Shown here: one piece after another, positions 6,117-53,290 of the stretch
Layout: the number at the start of each line of letters is the position of its first letter
Numbering within the stretch: position 1 is the stretch's first letter
NCBI RefSeq assembly: GCF_018334155.1
Contig: NZ_JAGXTP010000003.1
Location: forward strand, 372,001-436,000
Direction of reading: 5' to 3'
From: Devosia litorisediminis
GTDB lineage: Bacteria > Pseudomonadota > Alphaproteobacteria > Rhizobiales > Devosiaceae
DNA length: 64,000 nucleotides
Made by a program: the position numbers and the translations under genes
The notes under the pieces: model-generated
The model's input: only the letters and a program-made list of their open reading frames with translations
What the model was told of the DNA's origin: nothing
Databases searched by the model: none

Positions 6117-6844
6117 TCCTGTTTCCTGCCATCGATCTGAAAGACGGTCAGTGCGTGCGCCTCAAGCTGGGCGACATGGAGCAGGCCACCGTGTTCAACG
6201 ATGATCCCGCCGCCCAGGCCAAGAGCTTTGAGGATCAGGGGTTCGACTATCTCCACGTCGTCGATCTCAATGGCGCCTTTGCCGGGCAGAGCGTCAATGG
6301 CGCGGCGGTCGAAGCGATCCTCAAGGCCGTGAAATTCCCGGTCCAGTTGGGCGGTGGTATCCGCACCCTGGCCCATATCGAAAGCTGGCTCGACAAGGGT
6401 CTGGCCCGCGTCATTCTGGGCACCGTTGCGGTGCGCGATCCTGAACTGGTCAAGGCTGCCGCCAGCAAATGGCCCGGTCAGGTCGCCGTCGGCATTGATG
6501 CGCGCAAGGGCATGGTCGCCGTTGAAGGCTGGGCCGAGACCTCCGAGCTGTCCATCATCGAACTGGCCAAGCGCTTTGAAGGGGCGGGCGTGGCTGCCAT
6601 CATCTATACCGATATTGATCGCGACGGCGTGCTGGCCGGCATCAACTGGGATTCCACCATCGAGCTGGCCCGCGCCACCTCGATCCCGGTGATCGCCTCG
6701 GGCGGCCTCGCCTCGATGAGCGATATCGAGCGTCTGACCCAGCCCGATTGCGCCGTGCTCGAGGGCGCCATTTCGGGGCGCGCGCTCTATGATGGCCGCA
6801 TTGATTCACGTGAAGCACTGGCGCTGCTCAAGGCGGCTGGCTGA
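6113..6844 (+). CDS. hisA: ProFAR isomerase (1-(5-phosphoribosyl)-5-[(5-phosphoribosylamino)methylideneamino] imidazole-4-carboxamide isomerase)
   Basis: A TIM-barrel isomerase of 243 residues that converts ProFAR to PRFAR, the substrate of HisF. The N terminus ILFPAIDLKDGQCVRL carries the catalytic aspartate, and the second half has IYTDIDRDG and the phosphate-binding IASGGLAS. The GTG at 6113 overlaps the hisH TGA and has GAGG eight bases upstream; a GTG nine bases earlier in frame is less likely. A parS-like 14-mer variant lies inside the 3' end (6803-6816). The stop overlaps the start of the next gene. Confidence 0.96.
   Translation: MILFPAIDLKDGQCVRLKLGDMEQATVFNDDPAAQAKSFEDQGFDYLHVVDLNGAFAGQSVNGAAVEAILKAVKFPVQLGGGIRTLAHIESWLDKGLARVILGTVAVRDPELVKAAASKWPGQVAVGIDARKGMVAVEGWAETSELSIIELAKRFEGAGVAAIIYTDIDRDGVLAGINWDSTIELARATSIPVIASGGLASMSDIERLTQPDCAVLEGAISGRALYDGRIDSREALALLKAAG
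6803..6816 (+). promoter_or_regulatory. parS-like motif, variant GATTCACGTGAAGC (copy 1)
   Basis: One mismatch from GATTCACGTGAAAC. It lies within hisA, where it reads as the codons GAT TCA CGT GAA, the same frame used at the rsmI copy. Confidence 0.5.
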
Positions 6845-7071
6845 TGAATGCCCCCCGCCCCCTGCTGATCAGGAACGTCAACTTCCTCTGGTATCTGGCG
6901 CCGATCGTGCCCATCTTGGCATTGGGTTATGCGGCGCTGATGAGCTGGCTACCGAGCTGGTCGCTGCTGATCGCCGTCTTCGCCTTTTTGATGTGGCTGT
7001 TCTCGCTGGGTTTCACGGTGTTCGCCGTGCTCAAGCGCAAGCGGCAAGAGCGTAAGGAACAGCGTCCGTGA
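6844..7071 (+). CDS. Small two-helix membrane protein
   Basis: A 75-residue protein with two hydrophobic stretches (residues about 15-35 and 40-62) and a strongly basic tail (KRKRQERKEQR), predicting an inner-membrane hairpin with both ends in the cytoplasm. It starts on the hisA stop (one-base TGATG overlap) and its TGA overlaps a following GTG, so it is cotranslated in the his operon. I do not recognise a family. No histidine-pathway role is evident. Confidence 0.7.
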   Translation: MNAPRPLLIRNVNFLWYLAPIVPILALGYAALMSWLPSWSLLIAVFAFLMWLFSLGFTVFAVLKRKRQERKEQRP

Positions 7072-7178
7072 CCCTGAAGACCCGCCTTATCCCCTGCCTC
7101 CATGTCATGGATATGCCCGTGTCGCCCGCAGCGCCGCAGGCGCGAGGACGCGCAAATCAAAAAGGACGCGGCCGGTGA
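7068..7178 (+). pseudogene. Partial duplication of the hisF 5' end as a 36-codon ORF
   Basis: Bases 7068-7111 match the first 44 bases of hisF (7175-7218) at 40 positions. The copy begins with GTG overlapping the preceding TGA and reads MTLKTRLIPCLHVMD, then diverges into an unrelated Pro/Ala/Arg-rich tail. It ends in TGA that overlaps the true hisF GTG, so it is read through as a small coupled frame. Three of the four differences are synonymous; the fourth changes the catalytic aspartate (D12 of HisF) to histidine. It is best explained as a remnant of a local duplication or recombination at the hisF start. Confidence 0.8.
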
Positions 7179-51537: not shown

Positions 51538-51620
51538 GTCACCCTCGGGCTTGACCCGAGGGCCCTTCATTTACCAGCGCACCGCAAGTGCAAAGCCCTC
51601 GGGACAAGCCCGAGGGTGAC
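51538..51620. repeat. Long REP/BIME-type inverted repeat element
   Basis: GTCACCCTCGGGC begins a palindrome at 51538-51563 and its mirror, ending GCCCGAGGGTGAC, closes at 51596-51620; each half is itself a hairpin. It is a different family from the copies at 1501, 5072 and 8032. It lies between xylA and the GH43 gene. Confidence 0.7.
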
Positions 51621-51664
51621 GCGTGGTTGTGGTGTTGGCATTTCGCTTCGCAAAGGCCCCCATC

Positions 51665-53290
51665 ATGCCGCAAATTACCAATCCCATTCTGCCCGGCTTT
51701 AATCCGGACCCGTCCATTCTGCGCGTCGGCGATGATTATTATATCGCCACCTCGACCTTTGAATGGTTTCCAGGCGTACAGATCCACCACTCCAAGGACC
51801 TCGCCAACTGGACGCTTGTGACGCGTCCGCTCAACCGCAAGACCCAGCTCGACATGCGCGGCGACCCCGATAGCTGTGGCGTCTGGGCCCCCTGCCTCAC
51901 CCATGACGGCAAAAAATTCTGGCTGGTCTATACCGACGTCAAGCGCAAGGACGGCTCGTTCAAGGACGCGCACAATTACATCGTCTGGGCCGATAAGATC
52001 GAGGGCCCCTGGTCCGACCCGATCTATACCAATTCCTCGGGTTTCGACCCCAGCCTGTTCCACGATGATGATGGCCGCAAATGGTTCGTCAACATGACCT
52101 GGGACCACCGCCGCCGGCCATTGCTGTTCGCCGGTATTGCGCTGCAGGAGTTTGATCCGATCGCCGAAAAGCTCGTCGGGCCGGTCAAGAATATCTATCA
52201 GGGCACCGACCTTAAGCTGGTCGAAGGTCCGCACCTCTACAAGCGCAACGGCAAGGACGGCAAACCCTGGTATTATCTGCTCACCGCGGAGGGCGGCACA
52301 GCCTATGATCATGCGGTGACCTTTGCCCGTTCGCGCAATATCGACGGTCCCTACGAAACCCATCCCGACAAACACATCCTGACCTCAAAGGACGCGCCTT
52401 TTGCGGCCCTGCAGCGGGCCGGCCACGGCGATCTGGTCGAGACCCCCGAGGGCAAGACCTTCCTTGTGCATCTGACCGGTCGCCCCACCACGCAGGATCG
52501 TCGCTGTGTTCTGGGCCGCGAAACCGCGATCCAGGAGGCCTATTGGGGTGATGACGACTGGATTCACGTGAAACAGGGTCCCGTGCCATCGCTGCATGTC
52601 GAGGTGCCCGGCACCCGTGACGAGACATCCTACTGGGCAGAGCAGCGCTACAGCTTCGACAAGGGCTTGCCCGTTGACTTCCAGTGGCTGCGCACGCCCG
52701 AGCCAGAACGCATCTTCAATACCGATAGTGGCAAGCTGCGCCTGATCGGCCGGGAGTCGATTGGCTCGTGGTTCGAGCAGTCCCTGGTGGCCCGCCGCCA
52801 GACCCATTTCAGCTATGATGCCGAAACCACCGTCGATTTTACGCCTGCCGATGAGCGGACCATGGCGGGTCTGACCGCCTATTACAGCCGCTACAATTTC
52901 TTCTATCTGGCTGTGACAGCCCATTCTGACGGCAAACGCGAATTGCTGATCATGAGCTCGGAGATGAGCTGGCCCGACGGCAATCTGGAATTCCCGGCCG
53001 ATCCTGTATCGATCCCCGATACCGGCAAGATCCGGCTGGCGCTCACCATCCGTGGCCGCGCCCTGCAGTTCTTCTATGCCCTTGAAGGTCAGGAATTGCA
53101 GCCGATCGGCCCGGTGCTCGATGCCTCGCTGCTCTCGGACGAGTGTGGTGGGCACCAGGCCCATGGCAGCTTCACCGGTGCCTTTGTTGGCGTGGCGGCA
53201 CAGGATCTGAACGGCACGGCCAAGACGGCCGATTTCGACTACTTCACCTATCGCCCCGTCCAGCATCATTCCGATCGCTACGAAATCTGA
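51665..53290 (+). CDS. GH43-family beta-xylosidase
   Basis: A 541-residue glycoside hydrolase of the GH43 type (the GH43_11-like group). The five-blade propeller starts PILPGFNPDPSILRVGDDYYIATSTFEWFPGVQIHHSKD; the first catalytic aspartate is in NPDPS, the second in SSGFDPSLFHDDDG, and the glutamate in VEGPHLYKRNG. The C-terminal 200 residues are a jelly-roll domain (SWFEQSLVARRQTHFSY onward). No signal peptide is seen, so it acts in the cytoplasm on imported xylo-oligosaccharides. It closes the xylose locus. Confidence 0.95.
   Translation: MPQITNPILPGFNPDPSILRVGDDYYIATSTFEWFPGVQIHHSKDLANWTLVTRPLNRKTQLDMRGDPDSCGVWAPCLTHDGKKFWLVYTDVKRKDGSFKDAHNYIVWADKIEGPWSDPIYTNSSGFDPSLFHDDDGRKWFVNMTWDHRRRPLLFAGIALQEFDPIAEKLVGPVKNIYQGTDLKLVEGPHLYKRNGKDGKPWYYLLTAEGGTAYDHAVTFARSRNIDGPYETHPDKHILTSKDAPFAALQRAGHGDLVETPEGKTFLVHLTGRPTTQDRRCVLGRETAIQEAYWGDDDWIHVKQGPVPSLHVEVPGTRDETSYWAEQRYSFDKGLPVDFQWLRTPEPERIFNTDSGKLRLIGRESIGSWFEQSLVARRQTHFSYDAETTVDFTPADERTMAGLTAYYSRYNFFYLAVTAHSDGKRELLIMSSEMSWPDGNLEFPADPVSIPDTGKIRLALTIRGRALQFFYALEGQELQPIGPVLDASLLSDECGGHQAHGSFTGAFVGVAAQDLNGTAKTADFDYFTYRPVQHHSDRYEI
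52561..52574 (+). promoter_or_regulatory. parS-like motif GATTCACGTGAAAC (copy 8)
   Basis: An exact copy inside the GH43 gene, read as G ATT CAC GTG AAA C (WIHVKQ), a different codon frame from the rsmI and hisA copies. Confidence 0.6.

Follow-up and report, generated by a model that had tools for sequence, protein, structure and literature searches.

The 64-kb window analysed here (the whole stretch of 64,000 nucleotides, positions 372001-436000 of contig NZ_JAGXTP010000003.1, termed C3, of Devosia litorisediminis) contains a 14-base word, GATTCACGTGAAAC, in eight exact or near-exact copies, one half of which coincides with GANTC, the site of the DNA methyltransferase CcrM. Which element do these copies represent, and what keeps a CcrM site within them? 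The motif is almost certainly the parS (centromere) array of a chromosomal ParABS system, with 15 sites in the genome and eight of them in the window. The array itself is ordinary ParABS, and its new part is the GATTC half of parS; the retained CcrM targets suggest that methylation may help to time chromosome separation.

The parS array and its surroundings

The genome (3,743,297 bases in five contigs) was scanned for the number and spread of the motif, as the first-pass annotation had proposed for refuting its own ParB reading, and a single 73-kb cluster was found. All 14 occurrences of the exact core TTCACGTGAA are located within C3:351407-424572, and the reversed control pattern has 0 occurrences genome-wide. 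The array comprises GATTCACGTGAAAC (11 sites), GTTTCACGTGAAAC (two sites) and two different one-mismatch copies (one site each); the palindromic core TTCACGTGAA is present in 14 of the 15 sites, and the 15th reads TTCACGTGGA. The array begins 20.6 kb ahead of the window, with seven further sites at C3:351405-365824, and extends as far as 57 kb from the presumed oriC on one side. Within the window, TTCACGTGAA with at most one mismatch is matched eight times (0.87 expected; 0 of 100 dinucleotide shuffles reached eight), and the six exact copies of GATTCACGTGAAAC and the two one-mismatch copies annotated previously were confirmed at their coordinates (window positions, unless marked C3):

6803..6816, plus strand: parS GATTCACGTGAAGC, one mismatch, inside hisA (frame GAT TCA CGT GAA); GANTC at 6803-6807
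12386..12399, plus strand: parS GATTCACGTGAAAC, between an open reading frame (ORF) for an AI-2E-family transporter and a methylguanine-DNA methyltransferase-like ORF; GANTC at 12386-12390
23355..23368, plus strand: parS GATTCACGTGAAAC, intergenic, adjoining an alpha/beta-hydrolase ORF; GANTC at 23355-23359
29206..29219, plus strand: parS GATTCACGTGAAAC, between an isochorismatase-like ORF and grpE; GANTC at 29206-29210
35652..35665, plus strand: parS GATTCACGTGAAAC, inside rsmI (frame GAT TCA CGT GAA); GANTC at 35652-35656
41609..41622, minus strand: parS GATTCACGTGAAAC, inside an ORF without Pfam match; GANTC at 41618-41622
43733..43746, plus strand: parS variant GATTCACGTGGAAC, one mismatch, intergenic, adjoining an isocitrate lyase-family ORF; canonical half deviant, GANTC half (43733-43737) intact
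52561..52574, plus strand: parS GATTCACGTGAAAC, inside a GH43 gene (frame ATT CAC GTG AAA); GANTC at 52561-52565
C3:367314-367738, 4.3-4.7 kb before the window: hemE-maf gap, presumed oriC; 425 bases with five GANTCs

Four of the eight copies are located in ORFs, every one on the coding strand, and the other four are intergenic; the frames given for hisA, rsmI and GH43 are consistent with the ORF starts and the Pfam names. The previous description of most gaps as about 6 kb applies to some of them only, the seven gaps being 5.6, 11.0, 5.9, 6.4, 6.0, 2.1 and 8.8 kb; a regular 6-kb lattice was rejected, since the spacing differs in relatives (e.g. in genome G022). Directly next to the parS site at 41609 are two words that resemble DnaA boxes, TTATGCACA and TTATCCACG, each with one mismatch (window 41586-41622, minus strand).

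The genome has a single match to PF02195 (E up to 0.001), at C3:359232-359513 and thus inside the site cluster, in a ParB protein with N, helix-turn-helix (HTH) and C domains; the neighbouring genes are parA, rsmG, mnmG, mnmE, rho, hemE and maf. The protein was aligned with ParB of Caulobacter crescentus (6t1f; E = 2.7e-77), and the stretches IGKSRSHVANT and LTAGHAR, which include residues named as parS contacts in the part of the report available (PMC7383237), are common to both. The closest named ParB proteins are those of Devosia (94% to Devosia sp. FKR38), for which reason the family of the genome (f1) was taken as Devosiaceae. The ParB reading of the first-pass annotation is supported by the tight clustering around parAB and the presumed oriC, the single PF02195 gene and the contact stretches retained in the HTH region.

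The placement of oriC in the hemE-maf gap is presumed from gene order and boxes. We take the gene order around hemE-maf to indicate oriC, and TTAA-N7-TTAA, of which two of the six matches in the 142-kb region fall into the gap, to be a CtrA-like motif; one or two DnaA-box-like words are also present in the gap. A further reason for this placement is the distance of about 8 kb between the origin and the ParB-bound region in C. crescentus, as given in the available part of PMC5815017. Against the placement, GC skew is negative on both sides in the contig, and over C3:312001-453926 neither GC nor third-position skew changes sign at the presumed oriC; the missing switch possibly reflects a rearranged replichore. 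For the single-contig relative G022, the skew turns from negative to positive, noisily, at about 3.56-3.66 Mb, where its parS array is located.

The array shares with the chromosomal ParABS systems of C. crescentus and Bacillus subtilis, and with parS1 of Agrobacterium, the GTTTCACGTGAAAC-type core, the clustering at parAB and the presumed oriC, and one three-domain ParB, but the Devosia sites mostly have one GATTC half. The Devosia array also differs in extent, with 15 sites over 73 kb; the strong sites of C. crescentus number five and are contained in 5 kb (PMC5815017, sections available).

The CcrM site in one half of parS

Most parS sites of the family are composites, in which one half is the canonical GTGAAAC and the other, GATTC (rarely GACTC), is also a GANTC site. 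GANTC is inside 13 of the 15 sites of the D. litorisediminis genome and at most 12 bases away in 14; a binomial test of the 13 of 15 was not used, as the parS core alone supplies four of the five GANTC bases. In the family draw, all 61 genomes have GNTTCACGTGAANC sites (434 in total), and 361 of these, in 60 genomes, have the form with exactly one GANTC; the other 73 sites occur singly in 47 genomes and in pairs in 13, with none in one genome.

A CcrM gene is present on contig C1 (NF050803, 631.5 bits, below the model cut-off of 830), with N6_N4_Mtase and RAMA domains that both score above the Pfam cut-offs. The RAMA domain was matched in 56 of the 61 family genomes, and the five without a match are all incomplete assemblies (60-92% complete), which makes them of no use as natural cases of a missing CcrM. 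GANTC is depleted 1.9- to 3.4-fold in the surrounding 142 kb (147 seen; 274 expected from a Markov model, 497 from base composition). An encoded CcrM and regionally depleted GANTC are features in common with CcrM sites of other Alphaproteobacteria, whereas the Devosia GANTC is part of a centromere site or two bases away from one, with synonymous retention at one of these sites.

For counts by location, 61 named Devosiaceae loci were used, with positions 2 and 13 of the site left free and the orientation fixed by location. The GANTC half is retained in 49 of 51 sites at location B (in rsmG), 115 of 116 at C (mnmE-mnmG), 46 of 48 at D (near rho-hemE) and 26 of 32 at F, and GANTC is absent from all 57 sites at location A (in rsmG). 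The GATTC half faces the presumed origin at locations B and C and faces away at D and F; in the D. litorisediminis genome it faces the presumed origin at seven of eight right-arm and three of five left-arm GANTC sites.

Changes were counted on a tree of the parB region, for which rooting on the outgroup failed (the outgroup was not monophyletic). GANTC-breaking changes were found six times and canonical-half changes 20 times (P = 0.005), or three and 15 times (P = 0.004) when three loci of doubtful site assignment (L057, L074, L080) were removed. T-to-C changes at the fourth base number 11 in the canonical half and none in the GANTC half (which has two other changes there), the free N (third base) of the GANTC half changed four times with GANTC kept every time, and the bases flanking location D changed 16-21 times. 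Furthermore, 70 of the 74 rows with C at position 2 of one half have GATTC as the partner half; the rows are not independent (often the same site in related genomes), and one G/G palindrome was set aside. This count counters the notion of an A that is merely tolerated, because a tolerated A predicts T usually opposite C. A site with A in both halves is missing from the 15 sites of the genome (P = 0.007), a result that carries little weight by itself and gives way to the family data. No double form occurs among 444 sites of 80 named loci, and the one example observed, a lone site in the class-wide draw (genome G074), is 350 kb from the parS pair of that genome. These comparisons are poorly explained by ParB preference alone; a CcrM site is likely to be under selection at the centromere.

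The parS site at location A, inside rsmG, is canonical in 57 of 57 loci (gathered by the exact 14-mer; a loose template recovered the same 57), and GAATC is found two bases upstream of it in 56 of these (codons CAG AAT CTN; about two expected by chance). The third bases of CAG and AAT changed once each on the tree; among 26 other informative third positions nearby, 22 changed 10-27 times and four changed 3-9 times, and codon usage in parB is nearly even (AAT 270, AAC 261). Judged from these counts, the GAATC beside site A is held at synonymous codon positions. A GANTC in the left half of site A would need an altered second base in the codon for V of the RsmG peptide VSRET, and protein constraint probably locks this half. 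As controls, GANTC at a distance of up to 12 bases was found at four of 34 GTTTC or GTTCC sites of other Hyphomicrobiales and at two of 48 location E sites. At location B, the peptide DSRET sits amid variable neighbours, as if DNA constraint had shaped the protein (these sites were collected by motif), and in one rsmG gene (L018:8445-9092) two parS sites lie within the coding sequence.

Outside the Devosiaceae, parS-like sites bearing GATTC or GACTC, one or more per locus, were found in 17 of 19 additional named loci of Hyphomicrobiales. For another family of the same order, GVNTCACGTGAAVC was matched in 31 of 60 genomes (66 rows), and the rows with a canonical-type partner half comprise 41 GATTC, two GACTC, three GCTTC and no GGTTC; six palindrome rows (three sites) and 14 rows with other letters, which are background-like, were left aside. 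Among the matches listed for the class-wide draw of 230 genomes, GCTTCACGTGAAAC is present in three genomes outside the order. The order of genome G151 is represented by five genomes, too small a number to be informative. Unusually large parS-like sets (13-18 GNTTCACGTGAANC sites each, none of the one-GANTC form) were observed in four other alphaproteobacterial genomes (G065, G134, G264, G273).

Methylation and ParB loading

The first-pass annotation had raised the idea of an array read with its methylation state. Comparative support was obtained for the part that concerns the sites, as GANTC is retained in or beside most of them and CcrM is encoded; as to the reading of methylation, we infer that ParB loading may be modulated by it. 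ParB loading at parS is switched by CTP (cytidine triphosphate). An additional methylation input might operate as follows. CcrM would methylate the adenines of the parS GANTCs; the parS sites would replicate first and thereby become hemimethylated at once, and this state would last for most of S phase, until late-cycle CcrM synthesis. The methyl group in the major groove would alter ParB nucleation, such that ParB could tell freshly replicated from unreplicated centromere copies, and the start of segregation would thereby be coupled to the replication state and the CcrM cycle; sites A (GANTC outside) and E (no GANTC) would form the methylation-insensitive part. A parS array with retained CcrM sites, at which methylation-dependent ParB nucleation would tie segregation to replication state, is on balance marginally probable. 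We put forward tentatively that Devosiaceae, and to some extent other Hyphomicrobiales, have a centromere gated by methylation, in which parS and CcrM site are fused and ParB reads whether the origin region is fully methylated, hemimethylated or unmethylated.

SeqA and Dam form a hemimethylation system at oriC of Escherichia coli. The Devosia system, if the mechanism applies, would resemble it in having a replication-state mark in the origin region that is read by a DNA-binding protein, with CcrM and GANTC used instead and ParB as the proposed reader. If the GANTC is read, replicated and unreplicated centromeres could be told apart directly, and segregation of the primary chromosome would become a further function of CcrM. 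The repABC replicons (Paracoccus pAMI4, Agrobacterium chromosome 2) also have GANTC near partition sites, and an influence of GANTC on maintenance or partition is suspected in the parts of these reports that were available (PMC9040568, PMC11514494); however, these are RepB sites on secondary replicons, with GANTC about 500 bp off or in promoters, whereas in Devosia the GANTC is inside a ParB site of the primary chromosome. No report of an epigenetic input to ParB loading, or of GANTC inside chromosomal parS, was found in the accessible portion of the literature searched, and the 14-mer itself was not found in the searched paper texts.

Several observations weigh against a methylation-read centromere. 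At location E, just past the parB stop codon, 52 of 53 sites are without GANTC, hence the coupling of GANTC and parS is not universal in the array. In the class-wide draw, GNTTCACGTGAANC sites are present in 189 of 230 genomes but the one-GANTC form in only nine (D. litorisediminis included; eight of 229 elsewhere), and a methylation gate would thus be a lineage trait. The halves differ less when all changes over four positions per side are counted (11 in the GANTC half and 20 in the other, P = 0.075), for which reason our confidence in selection for GANTC was lowered slightly, and position 2 and its partner change similarly (four and six times). At site A, the right half could gain a GANTC by a mild T-to-S change, which was not observed. 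GANTC is also found within 12 bases of five of 40 canonical sites in 27 genomes of other families (about two expected, P = 0.05); because of this slight excess, the rsmG case has a weak background. For C. crescentus, the top 50 hypomethylated GANTCs, as far as given in the part of the report available, include none at 4030-4042 kb, and the GANTC methylation of its parS locus is unaltered by extra methylases (PMC5172544); ParB of C. crescentus binds at 4030-4042 kb (PMC5815017, in the part available).

Alternative explanations

The array might be an ordinary parS array also in respect of its GATTC half, position-2 A being a base peculiar to the lineage, tolerated or slightly preferred by ParB, and the overlap with GANTC being functionless. 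In favour of this, the array itself is ordinary ParABS, the form is common in other Hyphomicrobiales, changes at position 2 and at its partner are similarly frequent, and C. crescentus parS is likewise asymmetric, with a conserved GTGAAA half (PMC5815017, available part). However, a homodimer that binds a palindrome would be expected to prefer A either in each half or in none, and the double form is absent from the 444 sites; GANTC-breaking changes are rare; in rsmG, GAATC is maintained beyond the 14-mer itself, at synonymous positions; and the ParB protein retains the contact stretches known in C. crescentus. We consider a functionless overlap unlikely.

A second explanation is that GANTC is selected, but not as a gate for ParB: shielding by ParB might leave a hypomethylated mark, or the sites might serve CcrM- or GcrA-linked control of transcription, repair or replication near the origin. 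GcrA prefers YGANTC (Y, pyrimidine). In half-site counts, which preselect GANTC and were not used for conservation, T is the base ahead of GATTC at location B (48 of 49 sites) and at C (103 of 115), which would suit this preference (T is also the usual parS flank), but at location D most sites (36 of 46) have a purine there, contrary to the YGANTC rule. The five GANTCs within the 425 bases of the presumed oriC gap, and the shielding of GANTCs from CcrM by MucR in C. crescentus (PMC5172544, as far as available), are in line with functions of this kind; the GANTCs in question, however, stay in exact register with parS, whether a site is intergenic or in the middle of a gene. We consider a role other than a ParB gate unlikely as well.

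A Noc-type or other nucleoid-occlusion array, as also considered in the first-pass annotation, is very improbable. ParB and Noc bind related sites, and the D. litorisediminis protein scores 222.7 bits on the NCBIfam Noc model, below the cut-off of 315. However, the single PF02195 match adjoins parA, and no second ParB-family protein was found (E up to 0.001); the aligned recognition stretch is GKSR, identical to that of C. crescentus ParB, and the R of this stretch is replaced by Q in Noc; and the sites are confined to 73 kb. They also bear G1 and A6 like parS, whereas the Noc-binding site has A1 and C6 (PMC7383237, part available).

Chance or protein-coding constraint, for which only the four coding-strand copies in ORFs could be adduced, is scarcely credible and was rejected, in agreement with the previous statement that protein constraint does not explain the copies, on the shuffles, the four intergenic copies, the use of two codon frames and the genome-wide confinement.

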